From: Cytophagales bacterium
GTDB taxonomy: Bacteria; Bacteroidota; Bacteroidia; Cytophagales; Cyclobacteriaceae
Assembly (NCBI GenBank): GCA_017303795.1
Contig: JAFLBR010000020.1
Coordinates: 1 to 64,000 of the forward strand
Length of the DNA: 64,000 bases
Reading direction: 5' to 3'
Below, piece by piece: positions 127-14,037 of the stretch; the first letter of the stretch is position 1, and every line of letters starts with the position of its first letter. The translations under genes and the position numbers were made by a program. Under the pieces are notes generated by a model, which worked only from the letters and a program-made list of their open reading frames with translations, was not told the DNA's origin and searched no databases.

Positions 127-336
127 GACCCAATTCAATCAATGGATAGCATAAACATTCTTTCTACAATTGATTTGTTAAGAAGTATAGTTGTGAATCA
201 TAAAAAGCAAATTATACTTTCTACTCATGATGAAAACTTTCATAATCTATTAAAGAAGAAGATGCCATCAAGTTTATTCAATTCAAAATTTATGGAGCTC
301 GAGACTTTTGGAAAGGTAAAAACGAGCGGTAATTAA
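127..336 (+). pseudogene. C-terminal fragment of an SbcC/SMC-like AAA ATPase cut by the IS
   Basis: From 127 an open frame reads D-P-I-Q-S-M-D-S-I-N and continues to a stop at 334-336. D-P-I-Q-S-M-D is the Walker B/D-loop region of SbcC/Rad50-like ATPases (the usual text is L-D-D-P-I-Q-S-M-D-D), and I-I-L-S-T-H-D further on is the switch-histidine motif. The tail F-M-E-L-E-T-F-G-K-V is also typical of this group, which is common in phage-defence and DNA-repair loci. The Walker A half is missing and the break falls inside Walker B, exactly where the IS3-like sequence starts, so insertion destroyed the gene. The ATG at 142 is only an internal Met. No active product is expected. Confidence 0.65.
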
Positions 337-1071: not shown

Positions 1072-1302
1072 ATGAATGCTTCAAATCCACAATCAATAGG
1101 CGATTTTGTAAAGAAAACACGGAAAAGCCTCAGCATAACTCAAAATGACCTGGCGCTTACTTCGGGCACCGGCCTTCGCTTTATTATTGAGTTAGAGCAG
1201 GGCAAGCCTACCTGCCAGTTGGGTAAGGTGCTCACGGTTTTACAAACCCTCGGCATTGCCGTACAGCTAACCGGGCCGCTACAAAATAACCCATCGCGAT
1301 GA
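1072..1302 (+). CDS. hipB: HipB-like (Y4mF-type) antitoxin, XRE-family repressor
   Basis: This is a 76-residue DNA-binding antitoxin that should neutralise the HipA kinase encoded next to it and repress the operon. A helix-turn-helix of the Cro/CI class occupies about residues 8-62 (I-G-D-F-V-K-K-T-R-K ... L-A-L-T-S-G-T-G-L-R-F-I-I-E-L-E-Q-G-K), followed by the short beta tail L-G-I-A-V-Q-L seen in HipB and Y4mF proteins. The ATG directly follows the third operator, so bound repressor would also cover the ribosome-binding region. It overlaps hipA by the four bases ATGA, implying translational coupling. The family call is firm from the motif and gene pairing. Confidence 0.85.
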   Translation: MNASNPQSIGDFVKKTRKSLSITQNDLALTSGTGLRFIIELEQGKPTCQLGKVLTVLQTLGIAVQLTGPLQNNPSR

Positions 1303-2561
1303 CAGCAACCTTAGATGTGTATCTGCATACTGATCTCGTGGGTCACCTTGTTCAAGATGAGCATGGCCAAACGTTGTTTCAATATTCAGCAGCATGGCTT
1401 GCAAACACCAACGCTATCCCTTTGTCGCTAAGTCTTCCCTTGCAGAAAGAACCATTTGGTGAGAAACAGTGCAAACCGTTTTTTGCCGGAGTGCTGCCCG
1501 ACCCTGCGAAGCGTACGCTCATTGCGCGCAACCTGGGCATCAGTGCGAATAATGACTTCGCTATGCTGAAGGAAATTGGAGGCGAGTGTGCCGGAGCAAT
1601 TACGGTTGTAAATGCGGGAGAAAAATTATCTGAGTACGCAACTGACTACAAATTACTTTCAGTAAGTGCGTTGGAAAAAATAGTAATAGAGTTGCCCAAA
1701 CGGCCGCTCATGGCGGGCGAAGCGGGTGTTCGTCTTTCACTTGCTGGTGCGCAGGATAAAATTGCGGTCTATAAAAAAGACAATGATTTATTCCTTCCCC
1801 TACATAACACCCCAAGTTCGCACATTCTGAAGCCAGATATAGAAGCTTATAAAGGCATTGTTTTCAACGAAGCTTTTTGCATGAAACTGGCGGCACAGGT
1901 TGGCTTGCCCGTGGCACCCGTAACAACGGCTGCGGCAGGCCCTGTTGACTATTTGCTGATTGAACGCTACGACCGGACGCAAACACAAGTTGACAACAAG
2001 GTTAGGTTGGAGCGCATTCATCAGGAAGATTTTTGTCAGGCACTGGGTATTGTGCCTGATAGAAAGTATCAGGCTGAAGGCGGACCATCCATTAAAGATT
2101 GTTTTGATTTGGTTCGCAAAGTATCCAGCGTACCTGTTTTGGATTTAAATGCACTGCTTGATGCCATCATTTTTAATTTTCTGATTGGCAACCACGATGC
2201 GCACGGTAAAAATTTTTCGTTGTTGTATCGAAAGCCTGGTGCAGTAACCTCGCCCGGAAAGATACGACTGGCACCGTTGTATGATCTGATCTGCACACCG
2301 GTGTATCCGAACCTTAGTAAAAAGATGGCGATGAAGATTGGTGACGCTTATGTGTTGGATGATGTTAACCCACGGCAATTTGAAAAACTGGCCGAACAGA
2401 TCGGGTTTGCCAAACCGCTGGTAAAAAGAAGAGTGATTGATCAGGCTAAAAAAGTAAAGGAGTATTTACCGGTAGTCGATGTTACACATCCGGTAGCCGA
2501 TGAGATCAGGAAGTTTGTAGCCAGTCATTGCGAAGTGGTGTTGAAACGATTTGCCATCTGA
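1299..2561 (+). CDS. hipA: HipA-like serine/threonine kinase toxin
   Basis: At 420 residues this is near the usual HipA length. The N-terminal coupling subdomain (about 1-105) carries G-G-E-C-A-G-A-I near residue 94, and the kinase part shows R-L-S-L-A-G-A-Q-D-K, S-S-H-I-L-K-P, E-R-Y-D-R and H-Q-E-D-F-C-Q-A-L-G. The catalytic loop N-H-D-A-H-G-K-N lies at 298-305 (D300 as the likely base, K304 and N305 for ATP/metal) and A-P-L-Y-D-L replaces DFG. All key residues are present, so it looks active. E. coli HipA phosphorylates glutamyl-tRNA synthetase and causes persistence; the target here is unknown. It is cotranscribed with hipB and placed between two copies of the helicase 5' end. Confidence 0.88.
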   Translation: MTATLDVYLHTDLVGHLVQDEHGQTLFQYSAAWLANTNAIPLSLSLPLQKEPFGEKQCKPFFAGVLPDPAKRTLIARNLGISANNDFAMLKEIGGECAGAITVVNAGEKLSEYATDYKLLSVSALEKIVIELPKRPLMAGEAGVRLSLAGAQDKIAVYKKDNDLFLPLHNTPSSHILKPDIEAYKGIVFNEAFCMKLAAQVGLPVAPVTTAAAGPVDYLLIERYDRTQTQVDNKVRLERIHQEDFCQALGIVPDRKYQAEGGPSIKDCFDLVRKVSSVPVLDLNALLDAIIFNFLIGNHDAHGKNFSLLYRKPGAVTSPGKIRLAPLYDLICTPVYPNLSKKMAMKIGDAYVLDDVNPRQFEKLAEQIGFAKPLVKRRVIDQAKKVKEYLPVVDVTHPVADEIRKFVASHCEVVLKRFAI

Positions 2562-2577: not shown

Positions 2578-2862
2578 AAGCCTTCATTTCATTAAATTGT
2601 ACTGCATACATAGTCGCAGATATTTTACTTTAATAAATGCTTACCACCAACATCGCAATACTCATCGGCAAAGCCATCCGCGAAGGAAAGTACCTGAGCA
2701 TCGCTTACAAAAATAAGGGAGGCGAGCTTACGCAATTCTGGATAAGCATTCTGGATATCCCCTCTAAGGATGAGCTGCGGGTGAACATGTTTAATGTGAC
2801 CAAAGACGATCCTCTGATAGATAAAAAAATTTACATATCGGGAATTCAGTCAGCAGAGCTCC
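2578..2862 (+). repeat. Direct repeat H, copy 2 (intact helicase 5' end)
   Basis: Partner of 420-704. It covers 59 bases of leader, including AAGCCTTCATTT and ATTAAATTGTACT, plus the first ~75 codons of the helicase gene. The leader being conserved along with the coding part suggests the duplicated unit carried its own promoter region. Confidence 0.7.
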
Positions 2863-5621
2863 TCCGATTTTCACATTATGATGTGCCTGAAAGTCTGATC
2901 AAAAAACTGGAAGCAGATGAGCAGCTGGAAATGTATAACGTTACCCGCTATGATAATTCCATTTTAAACTATTGCCTGGAGTGCTACAAAACCAATAAAG
3001 ACCCGTTTCTCCACAAAACCCATTTGATTGCCGGGCTGGATTTATCCTCATTTGAAAGCACAAACCCGTACCTGTTAACCGGAGAACAACAAAAGCAAAT
3101 CATAAAAGAGGTTTACCAGAATGATTATAAAAAGCACTACGATTACGAACTCGCCCTTTCCGAGTTTTCCATAGACCTGAGTTCGAAGGGCAAATTTGTG
3201 GTGGCCTTCCGGAAGCTTACGTTCGACCCGGTAAAGAAAACGTTGCACTTAAGTAGCAAGACGCATTTCAATTCCAACTTCTACATTCAGCGTGTCAAGT
3301 ACACCTTGTCGTACTACACTGATCTAAGCCCAGCTGATTTTGAGACGATGTATCTAAAAGGTAAAGCTGAAACCATTGAACTGTTAAGCGGTAATTTTAA
3401 GACGGGCGAACTGCCCAACACCCGCCCTGAACTCGTGGTGCTAGGGTATGAGCAGATCGACATTTCAGGAATTTATGATCAGATACATGCCGAGTATCAA
3501 AAGAAAGAAATGCAGGTTCCGTTAAAAGCATTCTTTCAGAATTTGTCTTCGCTGGATAGAAAAAACAGAAAAGAACCACACATCGTATTGTATGATCGGA
3601 ATGTGAATATCGATCAGCTTCGCACAGTTTACAATGCTTTAAAATATCCCATCACGTACATACAGGGGCCACCGGGTACGGGCAAAACACAAACGATATT
3701 GAACATTATCGTGAACTGTATGGCCAATGCCAAAACACTCTTGATTTCATCGAACAACAACGTGCCCATTGATGGCATTAAAGACAAACTATACCTCGGC
3801 AAGTACCGCGACAAAGAGATTCAGCTTCCGGTAATCAGATTGGGCAACAAAGAATGTGTGAAGCAGGCATTGCAAACGATAAAAAAACTATACGCCTTTG
3901 ATACAAAAGATGTACCCAAAGAGGCCATGCTGGCGAACCTCAAGGAGAAGTCAAAAGAGAAGAACAAGTTACTGCTTGACCGGTTAAAACAATATGAGGA
4001 TAGACTAGACGTAACCCAGAATCTGGAATTCGTGAACGGACTCTTGTCGAAAGGCAAAAATCACTTACTCGAAAAAGAAAAGCGAGCACTGGATGAAAGG
4101 TTAGCGCAGATACCGGAAGTGACGAATGAAGACCTCAACAATATTTTTGAGGTTATAAAAGATAACCATCAACTCCTGCAGTTTTTTTATTTTGAGTCAT
4201 TACGATGCATCAAGCGTCTAAAAACGAAAGACTATAGTCAGCTTATTGAGATTGTAAATATTAAAGAAGAGAGTAACCAGATCCGAGAATTTAACAAGTG
4301 GCTGGCGGACGATGATAATCTGGAAAAATTCACGAAGGTTTTTCCGATTATTCTGACCACCAACATTTCGTGTCGCAGACTGGGAAAAAACTATAAGTTT
4401 GATTTGCTGGCCATGGACGAGGCCGGTCAGTGCGATATAGCCACCAGCCTTATTCCGATTTCCAAATGCAAAAACATGGTTCTCATTGGCGATACCAACC
4501 AGTTAAAACCGATTGTAGTCTTTGAAGAGACCCGAAACCAGGAGTTAATGCGGCAGTATACTATTGACGAACCGTACGATTATTATAATAATTCTATTCT
4601 TTCCACCTACAAAAGAATTGACAATATCTCCCGCGACATTCTATTGAGTTATCATTATCGTTGTGGCACAAAAATCATTCATTATTCCAACATGCGGTTT
4701 TATGAGAGCAAACTGAATTTATCAAAAATCAAGACCTTAGGTGAAGTGAAGTTGATAGACGTGAACAACGTCAATCAGAAAGCGAAAAATTCAGCCATTG
4801 AAGAGGCGCAGGAAATTGTACAATATCTCCACGATAATAAATTATCAGATGTCTTTATCCTCACACCCTTCCGAAATCAAGAAACGGTTATCAATCACTA
4901 TTTAAAGGAGGCAAAAGAACGGGGAGAGATAGAACCGTCCGTTAGTTGTGGAACCATTCATAAAGTACAGGGAAGAGAAAACCAGACCATCATGATCTCC
5001 ACAGCGCTTTCCAGAAATACCACTTCGCGCACATATGACTGGGTAAAAAATAATAGTCAGTTAATTAACGTAGGTGTTACCCGCGCCAAGGAAAAATTGG
5101 TGGTGGTTACCGATAAAAAGGCGATAGATATTTTATCCCGAAAAGATGATGATTTGTATGCTTTGATCGAGTATGTGCAAAAGAATGGTACTACGCAGGT
5201 TTCTCAAAGTACCGCCAATCGGTTTACCATCGGGTTTTCAAATAACTCCGTGTTTGAAGATGAGTTTTATAAAACGATGAGTCATTACTGCACCATACAA
5301 GGCACGCGGTTTGAAAGAAACATAAAGTTAACGGATGTATTTCCGGAAGAGATTAACAACGCAACTGTAAACAAAAGAGAATTTGATGGAATTGTTTTTG
5401 AAGGAAAAGTGCCTAAGGTAATCTTTGAAGTAAATGGAGCCGAGCACACTAAAAACAAGAAACGAATTGAGTCGGATACCCTAAAAATGCAACTGACCAA
5501 AAGTAAGGATGTGAAACTGATTTTAATTCCCAATCAATATGTGAAGCATTATGAATACATCCGCGAGTTAATGAATAAAATCAAAGGCGGGGTTTATCAG
5601 AAGACGTTGTTTGAGGATTGA
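2637..5621 (+). CDS. WYL-like / SF1 helicase / PD-(D/E)XK-like nuclease fusion, probable defence effector
   Basis: This 994-residue protein has three parts. Residues ~1-80 resemble a WYL-type small barrel (A-I-R-E-G-K-Y-L-S-I-A-Y-K-N-K ... I-Y-I-S-G-I-Q-S-A-E-L). The middle is an SF1 DNA2/NAM7-like helicase with G-P-P-G-T-G-K-T at 344-351, D-E-A-G at 594-597, G-D-T-N-Q-L-K-P near 618, H-K-V-Q-G-R-E and G-V-T-R-A-K-E-K at ~813. The C-terminus looks like a VSR/DUF559-type nuclease with D917, E931-V-N-G-A-E-H937 and downstream basic residues. Such helicase-nuclease fusions occur in prokaryotic immunity. The motor motifs are clear; the WYL and nuclease calls rest on pattern likeness. No methylase or other partner lies downstream, so it probably acts alone. 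Confidence 0.8.
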   Translation: MLTTNIAILIGKAIREGKYLSIAYKNKGGELTQFWISILDIPSKDELRVNMFNVTKDDPLIDKKIYISGIQSAELLRFSHYDVPESLIKKLEADEQLEMYNVTRYDNSILNYCLECYKTNKDPFLHKTHLIAGLDLSSFESTNPYLLTGEQQKQIIKEVYQNDYKKHYDYELALSEFSIDLSSKGKFVVAFRKLTFDPVKKTLHLSSKTHFNSNFYIQRVKYTLSYYTDLSPADFETMYLKGKAETIELLSGNFKTGELPNTRPELVVLGYEQIDISGIYDQIHAEYQKKEMQVPLKAFFQNLSSLDRKNRKEPHIVLYDRNVNIDQLRTVYNALKYPITYIQGPPGTGKTQTILNIIVNCMANAKTLLISSNNNVPIDGIKDKLYLGKYRDKEIQLPVIRLGNKECVKQALQTIKKLYAFDTKDVPKEAMLANLKEKSKEKNKLLLDRLKQYEDRLDVTQNLEFVNGLLSKGKNHLLEKEKRALDERLAQIPEVTNEDLNNIFEVIKDNHQLLQFFYFESLRCIKRLKTKDYSQLIEIVNIKEESNQIREFNKWLADDDNLEKFTKVFPIILTTNISCRRLGKNYKFDLLAMDEAGQCDIATSLIPISKCKNMVLIGDTNQLKPIVVFEETRNQELMRQYTIDEPYDYYNNSILSTYKRIDNISRDILLSYHYRCGTKIIHYSNMRFYESKLNLSKIKTLGEVKLIDVNNVNQKAKNSAIEEAQEIVQYLHDNKLSDVFILTPFRNQETVINHYLKEAKERGEIEPSVSCGTIHKVQGRENQTIMISTALSRNTTSRTYDWVKNNSQLINVGVTRAKEKLVVVTDKKAIDILSRKDDDLYALIEYVQKNGTTQVSQSTANRFTIGFSNNSVFEDEFYKTMSHYCTIQGTRFERNIKLTDVFPEEINNATVNKREFDGIVFEGKVPKVIFEVNGAEHTKNKKRIESDTLKMQLTKSKDVKLILIPNQYVKHYEYIRELMNKIKGGVYQKTLFED

Positions 5622-8003: not shown

Positions 8004-8747
8004 TTACCCGTTATCATCGTCATCATCGTCATCATCGCTGTCGTCATCGTCAATATCATCGTCATCATCATCATCTTCTCCACCTTTGCAGGAGTCTTCA
8101 AAATTATTTTTAACGATGTTTGCCAAAGCGGTATTGGTAGTATCGTTTATCCGGATAATCCCGTCAGCGCTTACTGTTGCTTTGCTCAGGTCCACTCCAG
8201 TAAATAAAACATCTAGATTAAATAGTACCAGAAAGTTTTTCAAGCTACCCTCCTGAATCTCGAAACCATTATCATCTTCATATTCAAACTCTAAACTGGT
8301 TTTAGAAGAAAACTCTACCGTTACACTGTCGCCCTCTGCTGGCTTGTATTTAAACACGATGAATACGCTATTGCCGTTGGCTAAAGTTTTTCCCAATTCT
8401 ATTTCAAATTCTTCGTAGAATCCAGGCAAGAGTTTACCATTTACAAATTCAGGGTTGCTGGTACCGGCAATCAAATCTACTACATAGCTACCTTCGAACT
8501 CTACTTCATTGCTATCATCAACCAGATCATCATCTTCGGTTGTTTCGAATTCAAATTTCCGTACGCCAATCATAGCTTGTTCAAAACTATAGCCGGTACT
8601 TTGTATCCGCCCAGAGCTATTGATGCGGGAAGAAGTAGTGGTCGCTTTCATTTTAAGTTGTAAACCTTCGGGAGCCAGACTGTTATCATCACAACTCCAG
8701 AATACCAACACAGTCAACATCAGACTTACAATCAATTTAGTTTTCAT
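8004..8747 (-). CDS. Lipoprotein (DUF4382-like) with poly-Asp C-terminal tail
   Basis: This is a 247-residue lipoprotein: hydrophobic signal and lipobox V-F-W-S-C (Cys 19), then an Ala/Thr/Ser-rich linker and a beta-rich domain reminiscent of DUF4382 (R-K-F-E-F-E-T-T-E, L-P-G-F-Y-E-E-F-E-I-E-L, V-D-L-S-K-A-T). The last ~30 residues are almost all Asp, encoded by GAT/GAC runs around 8010-8085. Such a tail would bind divalent cations or basic surfaces. It is grouped with a second acidic lipoprotein 28 bases upstream and a sigma/FecR/receptor operon running the other way. The tail tract is simple-sequence DNA and may vary in length between strains. Confidence 0.65.
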   Translation of the reverse strand: MKTKLIVSLMLTVLVFWSCDDNSLAPEGLQLKMKATTTSSRINSSGRIQSTGYSFEQAMIGVRKFEFETTEDDDLVDDSNEVEFEGSYVVDLIAGTSNPEFVNGKLLPGFYEEFEIELGKTLANGNSVFIVFKYKPAEGDSVTVEFSSKTSLEFEYEDDNGFEIQEGSLKNFLVLFNLDVLFTGVDLSKATVSADGIIRINDTTNTALANIVKNNFEDSCKGGEDDDDDDDIDDDDSDDDDDDDDNG

Positions 8748-8775
8748 AATAAATAGTTAGGTGTTTAATTAAGTT

Positions 8776-9819
8776 TTAAAGTTTTCTAAAAATCAAAGTT
8801 TTGCTTTCATCGTCATCATCTTCCGGTTTTGAGAGTTTGATTTGCATAGCGGTAATTTCAATTACATCCCAGTCTTCACTTATGGCATGCAATACCTCTT
8901 CTCCGGTTATTGAAATTTCGAGTTCCAGTTCGTCATCGTCTGATTCAATTTCCCAATCGCCCAGATAATTGCTGGAATTTTTTACGATCAATAGCTCTTT
9001 ATCTTCTTGAAACGTAAAGGTGTACCCTTGCAATTCGGCTGTACGATCGGTTTCATCCATGAACAAGGTTACCGTCCAGATTCCGGTTGTTAACAAAGTA
9101 CCAAGATTATCCTCGCTCAGATCATCATCGTTGTAATCATTATCGTCATCTTCATCGCAGTCGTCCTTACTTTCGTCAATTATATCTTCTAGTTCATCAA
9201 AATCAGTTACCATAATTTCAACACCGGTGGATAATACCACCGTAACCGGAAACACAAGTCCTGCAAATTCATCGTCTTCCAATTGGTTCAGGAAGTTGTA
9301 CAAGGCTTTGTCATCCAGAATGGTTACCGTAGCTGCCACTTGATTGTTGGCATCGTACGTGGTAAACTTTAAAGGATATTTAAAGTCGATGCACTCAATA
9401 TCATCATCCTCGCATTGATCGATCAGATCATCCAGCTCATCTTCATCTTGTACCGTGATAACCGAATGATCGGCCAACACTACACGAATCGGAAAAACGA
9501 AATCTACATCATCATCACCTGAGTCATCAAATAAGTCTTCAATATCTTTCAGGTCATCCAGATTGTTTAGGGTAATCGTTTGTCCATTTGTTTCAATGGT
9601 TACGGGAAACACCAACGTAATGCAACTGGCCTTGTCCAGAATATTATCGACCGACCCATCTTGTTTGGCTACCCGAAAAAGAAGGTTGGCTATCGCATCA
9701 GTTTTGGTAATGGTGGTACCATCCGGAGGTAGTGAAATAACCAATTCCTCCTGCTGGCAGGCGGTGAGCAGCGCAAGGCCCATCATAATCACCAGTACCC
9801 ATTTAATCAGAAGTTTCAT
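8776..9819 (-). CDS. Acidic lipoprotein with four internal ~40-residue repeats
   Basis: This 347-residue lipoprotein has the lipobox L-L-T-A-C (Cys 21). Four related units can be seen between ~65 and 225, each with an F-P-V/I-x-V strand, a second strand ending in I-T-V or an equivalent, then an Asp/Glu-rich helix such as D-E-D-E-L-D-D-L-I-D. A low-complexity Asp stretch (~D-D-C-D-E-D-D-D-N-D) separates them from a C-terminal lipocalin-like region (~240-347, G-I-W-T-V-T-L-F ... Y-T-F-T-F-Q-E-D). No named function is recognised. The extreme acidity and position opposite the sigma/receptor operon suggest cation binding at the cell surface; this is inference. It is probably the first gene of the minus-strand transcript. 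Confidence 0.65.
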   Translation of the reverse strand: MKLLIKWVLVIMMGLALLTACQQEELVISLPPDGTTITKTDAIANLLFRVAKQDGSVDNILDKASCITLVFPVTIETNGQTITLNNLDDLKDIEDLFDDSGDDDVDFVFPIRVVLADHSVITVQDEDELDDLIDQCEDDDIECIDFKYPLKFTTYDANNQVAATVTILDDKALYNFLNQLEDDEFAGLVFPVTVVLSTGVEIMVTDFDELEDIIDESKDDCDEDDDNDYNDDDLSEDNLGTLLTTGIWTVTLFMDETDRTAELQGYTFTFQEDKELLIVKNSSNYLGDWEIESDDDELELEISITGEEVLHAISEDWDVIEITAMQIKLSKPEDDDDESKTLIFRKL

Positions 9820-11470: not shown

Positions 11471-13961
11471 TAGGTTTATCTGCCTTGTATTTTTGGTATC
11501 CATCATCGGCATGCCGCTGCAGGCCCAGCAAGTGAAACGTGAACCTTTGCGTTTTGTATTACAAAAACTGCAGCATCAGTTTAAGGTTGTATTTACGTTT
11601 GCCGATGACTGGATAGCAGGAGTTGAGGTAGAGATGCCAGCATCAAAAAATTCCCTGCAGGCCACGCTTACCCATCTAAGCAAGCAAACAAACCTGACAT
11701 TTCAGATACTGGACTCGCGGTATATTGTAATCAGTAAGTCTTTCATAAAAGTTAACGATTCACTTTGCGCCACCGTGCACTCAGCCGAAACAGGTGAACC
11801 CTTGCCAGGCGCTACCGTACAACTCAACCAGGCCTTCACGACCACTAATCCTTCTGGCTATTTTCAACTTAGCACTTCATCCGGACAACTTGTTATTCGA
11901 ATGCTGGGCTTTGAACCCTTGCTCCTTTCATCTGATTCAATTCAGGGAGATTGTGCTTCGTTATTCCTGAAGCCTGACTTCACCATGCTGAATGAAGTTA
12001 CCGTAACGGATGTGATTGCATCAGGAATTGAAGAACGGGCTGATGGTACCATTACATTACGCCCGGAGATATTGGGTATTTTACCCGGGCATCCACAACC
12101 CGATGCGTTACAAACTTTACAATATCTTCCCGGAGTAAAAAGTATTGCCGAGGCCTCCGCAGATTTAAATATTCGTGGGGGAACAAATGATCAAAACCTG
12201 GTATTGCTGGATGGAATCCGGGTTTATCAAACCGGTCATTTTTTTGGATTGATCTCCGGTCTTAACCCACATGTTATTTCAAAAGTAAGTTTGATTAAGA
12301 ATGGCACCAGTGCTTATTATGGTGAGGGTGCATCGGGTACTATTATTATTCAGGCCGAAGATCAGGTTAATCGTAAACTAAGTGGCAGTGCCGGAGCGAA
12401 TCTTTTATATACAGATGCAAATGTTCACGTGCCGTTGACTAAAAAGTTATCAATTCAGTTGGCGGCTCGCAGATCACTTCCTTCCGTGTGGCAAACGCCC
12501 ACCTATAAACAATATTTTAAACGCGCTTTTAGTTATACCGAAGTAGCAAACCCTTCCAATACAATAGCACAAAGCCAGGATTTTAATTTTTTCGATACGC
12601 ATGTAAAGTTGCTCTACGATGCAACACCGCGCGATAAGGTAAGGGCAACTTTTTTTAATGTTACCAACCTGCTGGAATATGAAGAACGGGCACAGGGTAT
12701 AACACCGGATCAACGGAAAAGTACGCTCAGGCAGAATAGTTATGGAAGTAGCCTTACGCACACACGGCTATGGACTGATAAAATCAAAACAAACCTGGAG
12801 GGATTTATTTCGGGGTATTCACTGGATGCTGTTAATCAAAACACATTGGCTAATCAACAACTTACGCAGGGCAACCAGATTTTGGATGCAGGTATGAGAT
12901 TATCGGCATTTTGGAATGTCCATCCACAGCTTCTGGTTACAACGGGGTATCAGTTTTTTGAAAGTGGCATTACCAATTCCGATGCAATCAATAATCCAGT
13001 ATTTAGCAGATTGAGTAAGGAAGTTAATCGTACCCATGCAGTTTTTGCGGAGGCAACATTCTACGATAAGCAGGAACGCACTCAGGTTAGATTTGGTTTG
13101 CGAGCCAACCACTATTCTAAACCCAACACCTTTCGGGCCGAGCCCCGCCTGATACTCAATAGAAAGATAGGAAAGTATTTTTCAGCCGAAGTACAGGGCG
13201 AGATAAAGACTCAAACCAGTGTACAGGTTATAGATCTTCAAAACGATTTCTTAGGGGTGGAAAAGAGACGCTGGTTGCTTTCCAATGGTACTGATGTACC
13301 CATATTGCACAGTAGGCAAGTTTCAACAGGGTTAAATTTTAATAAAGGCAAATGGCTGGTGAGTGCCGATTTATTTTATAAAAATGTAGATGGCGTAATT
13401 ACCTCTAGTCAGGGTTTTCAAAACCAGTTTCAAAACGTGCGCACAATGGGCAACTATTATACACAGGGTGTGGATATCCTTACAAATTATAAGCACTCAA
13501 AATTTAACTCTTGGCTCAGTTATTCTGTTTCGCAAAGTGTTTACAAATTTTCTGATCTTATTCCACCTTCATTTCTAAACAACCTGGATATTCGCCACAG
13601 TTTGAATGGCGGAGTTGGCTATAGAGTAAATCAATTGGAATTATCGTGTGGTGCCAACTGGCATTCTGGCCGACCCACAACGCTTGTTCTTGAAAATGAA
13701 GTAATTTCAGGAGTAATCAATTACGATTCACCTAATGCAGTAAGTCTGAAAAACTACTTTCGAGTAGATGTATCAGCGAGTTGGTATTTTTATTTAGGAA
13801 AATCCATCAACAGCCACGCAGGAGTTTCGTTATGGAATGTATTGGATAGAAAAAACATTCTCAGTCAGCATTATCAGCTTATTGAGTTTTCGCAATTAAG
13901 TACAATACAACAGCCAGGATTGGGTTTTACACCTAACCTGTTTCTAAGAGTGAACTTTTAG
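11460..13961 (+). CDS. TonB-dependent outer-membrane receptor with STN signalling domain
   Basis: This 833-residue receptor has a signal peptide (~1-22, ending L-Q-A-Q-Q), an STN domain (~25-95, F-V-L-Q-K-L-Q-H-Q-F-K-V-V), a carboxypeptidase regulatory-like domain (~105-180, G-E-P-L-P-G-A-T-V), a plug domain (~200-300, L-N-I-R-G-G-T-N-D-Q-N-L-V-L-L-D-G-I) and a beta-barrel to the end in V-N-F. The STN domain is the part that signals to FecR. At 833 residues it is shorter than SusC-type receptors, and no susD gene follows, so glycan uptake is unlikely. A metal chelate or similar ligand fits the acidic neighbours better but is unproven. Confidence 0.88.
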   Translation: MQSNRFICLVFLVSIIGMPLQAQQVKREPLRFVLQKLQHQFKVVFTFADDWIAGVEVEMPASKNSLQATLTHLSKQTNLTFQILDSRYIVISKSFIKVNDSLCATVHSAETGEPLPGATVQLNQAFTTTNPSGYFQLSTSSGQLVIRMLGFEPLLLSSDSIQGDCASLFLKPDFTMLNEVTVTDVIASGIEERADGTITLRPEILGILPGHPQPDALQTLQYLPGVKSIAEASADLNIRGGTNDQNLVLLDGIRVYQTGHFFGLISGLNPHVISKVSLIKNGTSAYYGEGASGTIIIQAEDQVNRKLSGSAGANLLYTDANVHVPLTKKLSIQLAARRSLPSVWQTPTYKQYFKRAFSYTEVANPSNTIAQSQDFNFFDTHVKLLYDATPRDKVRATFFNVTNLLEYEERAQGITPDQRKSTLRQNSYGSSLTHTRLWTDKIKTNLEGFISGYSLDAVNQNTLANQQLTQGNQILDAGMRLSAFWNVHPQLLVTTGYQFFESGITNSDAINNPVFSRLSKEVNRTHAVFAEATFYDKQERTQVRFGLRANHYSKPNTFRAEPRLILNRKIGKYFSAEVQGEIKTQTSVQVIDLQNDFLGVEKRRWLLSNGTDVPILHSRQVSTGLNFNKGKWLVSADLFYKNVDGVITSSQGFQNQFQNVRTMGNYYTQGVDILTNYKHSKFNSWLSYSVSQSVYKFSDLIPPSFLNNLDIRHSLNGGVGYRVNQLELSCGANWHSGRPTTLVLENEVISGVINYDSPNAVSLKNYFRVDVSASWYFYLGKSINSHAGVSLWNVLDRKNILSQHYQLIEFSQLSTIQQPGLGFTPNLFLRVNF

Positions 13962-14037
13962 ATGAGAGAAGAACTATTGAATCCAAAATTCTTCTTAATT
14001 TAGAAACATAGGGTAAACTCACTTTGAACAAAGTAAC

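Follow-up and report, generated by a model that had tools for sequence, protein, structure and literature searches.

The UPF1-like helicase defence group holds Mokosh, which joins its helicase to a PLD nuclease or a kinase part, and Hhe, which has a Vsr-like nuclease. In the PIF1 helicase of Thermotoga elfii, a WYL domain was reported to bind single-stranded DNA (ssDNA) and to enable the superfamily 1 (SF1) helicase, the WYL domains of PIF1 helicases being described as required for unwinding (PMC9122601, PMC6789036, PMC9964779; papers given by PMC number are drawn on throughout from excerpts), and Hachiman was described as a helicase-nuclease responding to ssDNA ends in defence (PMC10925250). 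The gene considered here lies at 2637-5621 on the forward strand of a 64,000-nucleotide window, the whole stretch of DNA that was analysed (contig JAFLBR010000020.1 of the Cytophagales bacterium assembly GCA_017303795.1, positions 1 to 64,000). It is a single uninterrupted frame of 994 amino acids, running from ATG to stop without internal stops, in which a WYL-like N-terminus, a UPF1-like SF1 helicase and a DUF2726-like nuclease follow one another. An earlier model annotation made without database searches (hereafter the sequence-only reading) had proposed a sensor-like N-terminus, a motor and a C-terminal nuclease in one polypeptide, and this layout was borne out by the intact frame, the Pfam matches of the motor, the nuclease profiles and a predicted WYL-like fold. 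With its relatives scattered patchily over several phyla and often beside anti-phage genes, the gene is probably a one-gene defence system; we predict, with moderate confidence, a stand-alone accessory defence against phages or other invading DNA.

The likeness to Mokosh lies in a related helicase core (PADLOC models MkoC, E 2.2e-42, and MkoA, 1.1e-38). However, the 994-residue protein carries a DUF2726-like nuclease and has no partner, gives no Pfam match to a PLD or kinase domain, and is matched by the Mokosh models in the helicase region only. Hhe and ProA contain an SF1 core of the same kind, but the protein scores 64.3 bits against the NCBIfam cut-off of 2000 for Hhe and 87.8 against 1500 for ProA, and has no Pfam match to DUF4011 or DUF3320. 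Membership of Mokosh, Hhe or ProA was rejected because the matches are confined to the helicase. Helicase stretches also match the PADLOC candidate system PDC-S37 (1.3e-27), the 1550-position profile of which is covered only partly. The T. elfii PIF1 helicase, which binds ssDNA, resembles the protein in joining a WYL domain to an SF1 motor, whereas its WYL domain is C-terminal, its motor is of the PIF1 type and the available excerpts name no nuclease (PMC9964779). BrxR, CapW, PafBC and DriD share the WYL fold of the N-terminal domain in Foldseek searches but are described, in the excerpted sources, as transcription factors without a motor or nuclease.

The combination of motor and DUF2726 is already known from annotation. 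UPF1-like proteins encoded on plasmids share the order of an AAA_11-AAA_12 motor followed by a DUF2726 nuclease, including WP_154395897.1 (Parabacteroides plasmid, 902 residues) and WP_236479692.1 (E. coli plasmid, 893 residues). They differ in that they align over motor segments only, at 28-38% identity, and have a shorter N-terminus that cannot be aligned to residues 1-289 of the present protein; they too match PADLOC on the helicase parts only and fall below NCBIfam cut-offs. Nine frames of about 810-925 residues in other Bacteroidota genomes (loci L193-L196, L198, L199, L203, L204 and L208) likewise encode a related helicase with DUF2726; their motor aligns to that of the 994-residue protein, their N-termini lie outside the fetched loci, and they represent a sister architecture. 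Scanning for DUF2726 gave 48 of 296 in the phylum sample and 0 of 39 in the near relatives, where no control genome gave a signal either. A 590-residue frame on MT835661.1, an unverified faecal contig labelled as phage, has helicase motifs and a DUF2726-like end (locus L190, 3638-5410) and matches residues 562-953 at 25% identity; the 407-residue frame beside it looks to us like a tyrosine recombinase. The new part of the present architecture is the built-in WYL-like sensor. For the protein and three distant members, PADLOC (2023) had no model matching beyond the motor and NCBIfam (June 2026) scores were far below the cut-offs, and no description of a WYL-like/helicase/DUF2726 architecture was found in the excerpts retrieved from open-licence PubMed Central.

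A scan of one genome per species across 84,980 species, which relied on six short peptide patterns and picks up mainly close relatives, gave 50 loci with relatives of the gene. Together 47 sequences, that of the window included, align over more than 880 residues. The full-length homologues (30-92% identity) span six phyla: those of Bacteroidota are 63-92% identical, those of Bacilli 36-40%, and a planctomycete, an elusimicrobium, two Cardiobacteriaceae and two spirochaetes contribute homologues at 30-34%. Three alignments were taken from the 47 near-full-length sequences, namely A1 (28, picked for diversity), A2 (43) and A3 (45), after dropping sequences short in the region concerned and the near-copies L009 and L036. 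Within the taxonomic family, 7 of the 148 genomes carry the gene, its own included. In the phylum sample of 395 genomes its own was the only carrier, in a scan limited to two scored candidates for each genome listed, which may have overlooked some. The frame is broken in five of the 50 loci (L015, L018, L029, L049 and L057, the last at a contig edge), which may reflect decay or sequencing error.

The motor is the sole part of the 994-residue protein that Pfam recognises, AAA_11 falling on residues 323-628 (E 8.6e-32) and AAA_12 on 664-827 (E 3.4e-18) of a helicase core that occupies residues 323-828 (3603-5120). Walker A reads GPPGTGKT (344-351, with K350 as its lysine) and motif II reads DEAGQ (594-598, with E595 as its glutamate); they are joined by GDTNQLKP (618-625), HYR (673-675), TIHKVQGRE (773-781) and NVGVTRAK (811-818). 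The key residues of these motifs are invariant in the family alignment down to 30% identity, both Pfam families are matched by 28 of 28 members, and an insertion at about 405-568 is poorly conserved. As its PDB sequence matches include Sen1, Nam7/UPF1, SMUBP2 and DNA2, the motor is, by homology, a UPF1/SMUBP2/DNA2-like SF1 helicase. The DNA2-type motor of the sequence-only reading, with K350 and E595 in place, was accordingly upheld.

The C-terminal domain, at residues of about 867-994 (5235-5618), is predicted by homology to be a DUF2726-like nuclease. Its profile aligned in hhalign to that of DUF2726 at 98.2% (E 3.7e-14, 98 columns) and to that of DUF559 at 92.5% (45 columns), with control regions of the same protein below 0.5% in the DUF559, WYL and DUF2726 runs; the profiles were built from 18 (DUF2726), 27 (DUF559) and 29 (WYL) of 30 fetched loci, the remainder being partial or unused. 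Pfam DUF2726 (PF10881) was matched by 15 of the 28 members at E ≤0.1 (best 2.2e-11; counted at this threshold, not at the curated cut-off), MTES_1575 by five and DUF559 by four at the same threshold. In contrast to these relatives, the 994-residue protein gives no match to any Pfam nuclease model at E ≤1. Searched against PDB sequences, the C-terminal profile gave one match at E ≤10, the homing endonuclease I-Bth0305I (E 0.0018). Residues D917, E931, G934, E936, H937, D947 and K950 do not vary in any sequence of A1 or A3, the invariance of the seven reaching down to 30% identity, and D917, E931 and H937 are likewise kept in the 10 most distant of the members inspected (30-40% identity). They fall within a core of helix, three strands, helix and strand bearing D...E-x-[DN]-G-x-x-H...D-x-x-K, and the structural model places D917 on strand 2 and E931 on strand 3, which is the PD-(D/E)XK order. 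Foldseek returned 343 matches of this model at E ≤10, the best at 0.066 (3hrl); the first 13 rows comprise 3hrl, TnsA, MspJI, AgeI, bunyavirus cap-snatching endonucleases and one mitoribosome chain, 12 of the 13 being, as we take them, members of the PD-(D/E)XK superfamily, and lower rows include unrelated folds. Profile search and structure prediction thus recovered the nuclease clearly by profile and weakly by fold, in agreement with the D917/E931/H937 site that had been proposed from the letters of the sequence. As the closest nuclease, Vsr or DUF559, the types named at that time, was set aside because DUF2726 scores higher.

In the AlphaFold2 model of residues 1-330 (mean predicted local distance difference test score, pLDDT, 82), the protein opens with a helix followed by a five-stranded barrel, and residues 1-80 (2637-2876) are predicted to form a WYL/Sm-like barrel. 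BrxR WYL chains fill the top seven rows of the Foldseek list (7qfz; E 3.7e-3 to 9.2e-3, probability 1.00), CapW, DriD and PafBC occupy places among rows 9-20, and hhalign against the WYL profile gave 43% over 28 columns, with controls below 0.5%. Residues 81-322 (2877-3602), which are modelled as helices and a second set of strands preceding the helicase core, gave no match of their own in the Foldseek, hhalign or PDB-sequence profile runs, and from the model we infer a UPF1-type stalk and 1B domain. As the N-terminus and the C-terminus are both conserved together with the motor, the three parts have travelled together.

The homologues lie in variable neighbourhoods rich in defence genes. Within 3 kb of them, 216 open reading frames (ORFs) of at least 120 residues were called, frames holding X being dropped, and the 88 nearest were scanned alongside 88 control proteins drawn at random from 202 ORFs in 20 hand-chosen stretches of six genomes of the window's taxonomic family, with proteins of 1300 residues or more excluded. 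The neighbours match 165 PADLOC models at ≤1e-10 (lowest E listed 1.1e-285) and the controls three (lowest E 1.3e-11), counts of redundant models rather than of proteins, so that the ratio overstates the enrichment. Among the best 25 of the 165 models are Vsr, AbiEi, MTase_II, DrmMII, SoFic, IetA and pAgo; genes for ordinary metabolic and surface functions occur in the neighbourhoods too. No partner gene recurs, the largest cluster of neighbouring proteins covering seven of 51 compared loci. A defence-island neighbourhood is supported for the homologues, which are patchy, have variable, defence-rich neighbours and do not share a single fixed housekeeping setting.

The mechanism we propose draws on an architecture, intact and conserved catalytic motifs, lack of a recurrent partner, patchy spread and defence neighbourhood that are established by computation; the ligand of the WYL-like domain, the polarity of the motor, the choice of DNA over RNA, the anti-phage activity and the choice between degradation and abortive infection are its predicted parts. 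The ligand of the WYL-like domain would be exposed single-stranded nucleic acid, most likely ssDNA found at DNA ends or on intermediates of phage replication, and its binding would load or license the UPF1-like motor. The motor would then translocate, probably 5' to 3', handing the strand to the DUF2726-type nuclease, which would cut the invader or, when highly activated, all cellular DNA. This sequence of ssDNA sensing, motor loading and cutting is suggested by analogy with the PIF1-WYL helicases and Hachiman. Since no self-marking partner recurs, discrimination would need DNA structure or a threshold. A further-reaching proposal, which we consider conceivable but hold only tentatively, is that the protein founds a new family of single-gene immunity. 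Here a WYL-like sensor would be built into the motor-nuclease, such that recognition, translocation and destruction are combined in one polypeptide without a partner or self-marking; the ligand recognised would then be either single-stranded nucleic acid or a nucleotide signal that the phage induces. WYL domains have otherwise been described chiefly as regulators next to defence systems, and a sensor-effector fusion would make single-stranded nucleic acid as an infection signal for WYL directly testable in a seemingly partner-free protein. The family, unlisted so far, would join the UPF1-like helicase defence group of Mokosh and Hhe.

A number of observations weigh against the defence reading and the domain assignments on which it draws. 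The N-terminal model has no Foldseek match at E 0.001 or better among 602. It is matched by Hfq, by Sm proteins and by a designed SH3 barrel as well, in keeping with the Sm-like nature of WYL (PMC6789036). No Pfam match to WYL (PF13280) was obtained in the 994-residue protein at E ≤1, WYL is absent from the best 25 of the 38 Pfam families matched by the 28 members, and the N-terminal profile recovered no WYL chain among PDB sequences, its one match being the irrelevant AHNAK2 (E 0.33). The third strand, its order inferred, reads LRVNMFN, in which a W-Y-L tripeptide is not apparent by eye. Given this weak sequence support and the modest E-values, the domain is called WYL-like rather than WYL; of the WYL-like sensor in the sequence-only reading, the barrel fold stands as a prediction led by BrxR, and a significant sequence-profile match does not. 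The C-terminal model has a mean pLDDT of 69, and none of its Foldseek matches reaches E 0.001. In the neighbour test, the ORFs were called mechanically, the PADLOC models are redundant and the controls all come from a single taxonomic family; of ten hand-picked neighbours scanned singly, four match PADLOC at 1e-10 and six match nothing. In a tree of 47 rows, the Bacteroidota stay together and the six phyla require five label changes, the least possible, so that transfer between phyla is not demonstrated. The two spirochaete rows separate on starred branches, but both rows are long; gain and loss inside phyla could explain the patchy spread, just as transfer could. Lastly, UPF1-like helicases include RNA enzymes.

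In an RNA-directed alternative, RNA would be the substrate of the motor, and the DUF2726-type domain would cleave RNA or RNA-DNA hybrids. Sen1, Nam7/UPF1 and SMUBP2 are among the top PDB sequence matches, but relatives of DUF559, Vsr and I-Bth0305I act on DNA. Excerpts from the literature likewise point both ways, a WYL protein that binds single-stranded RNA being reported to boost Cas13d (PMC9122601) and DUF2726 being termed a DNase of the restriction endonuclease fold (PMC3710099); on this evidence, we regard action on RNA as unlikely. Abortive infection, with the same sensing but an activated nuclease that destroys host and phage DNA alike, has a precedent in Hachiman (PMC10925250) and agrees with the lack of a recurrent partner, and hence of a recurrent self-marking methylase. 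The sequence holds nothing that separates this mode from invader-specific cutting, and we deem it a rather improbable outcome, though the best placed of the alternatives.

A role in accessory DNA repair, such as DNA2-like end processing without specialisation for defence, would accord with the presence of DNA2 among the sequence matches, DNA2 itself also joining a helicase and a nuclease. The low and patchy prevalence, the variable, defence-rich neighbourhoods and the broken frames, whether from decay or sequencing error, speak against such a role, which we judge slightly less probable still than action on RNA. The gene might instead belong to mobile elements and be used between elements, or for their upkeep, rather than serve the host. 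The repeated element at the edge of the window (described below), the MT835661.1 frame and the plasmid-borne helicase-DUF2726 relatives are in keeping with this, but not one of 72,556 plasmid and 50,697 phage records covers 80% of the protein, and the at least 19 loci found in a scan of viral contigs match parts of the motor only; of all the explanations, this appears the least probable. The stand-alone defence reading is the one we favour for the 994-residue protein.

The window opens, at what is also the start of the contig, with the end of a repeated element (1-127), the first 126-127 bases of which recur exactly at four other places in the genome, three of them contig starts. The element is probably an insertion sequence, and its reverse strand reads, to our eye, like the start of an IS3-type orfA. 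Directly after it stands a 64-residue frame (142-336, forward strand) that may be a C-terminal fragment of an SbcC/AAA_13-like ATPase; the SbcC remnant noted earlier is present as a frame, its AAA_13 match (E 0.0096) lying below the cut-off. As a partner of the helicase gene, the fragment was ruled out because the match is too weak and does not recur at other loci. A truncated second copy of the family gene follows on the forward strand (479-709), comprising the first 75 codons and part of the 5' flank before a stop, and is a diverged allele at 75% amino acid identity. This copy and the full gene flank hipBA on opposite sides, and the remnant may mark an allele replacement with hipBA between. 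Downstream of the 994-residue gene lies a lipid A acyltransferase gene; five same-genus stretches around the best match to it, two of which are contigs of 3.7 and 5.2 kb, contain no helicase-like frame. On the reverse strand at 8004-9819, two frames have lipoprotein-like starts (judged by eye) and long Asp runs; the five same-genus stretches contain no counterpart of either.

The HipBA pair that had been recognised next to the gene was verified as a hipB-like antitoxin of 76 residues (1072-1302, forward strand; HTH_19 below the cut-off) and a hipA toxin kinase of 420 residues (1299-2561, forward strand; Pfam HipA_C 5e-53 and Couple_hipA 5e-26). The two products cluster with no neighbours of other homologues, and hipBA was excluded as a partner; it is an incidental neighbour outside the system. 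DNA-level similarity to hipB and hipA of the window occurs only at locus L011, where two short adjoining stretches (13736-14003), about 2.7 kb from the helicase homologue, resemble the hipB/hipA junction and the 3' end of hipA, perhaps as an internally deleted hipBA. Directly upstream of hipB, positions 949-1071 hold three partly palindromic 25-nucleotide repeats, 72-100% identical, with GGGAATATT ends and a spacing of exactly 49 bases, which are possibly candidate HipB operators.

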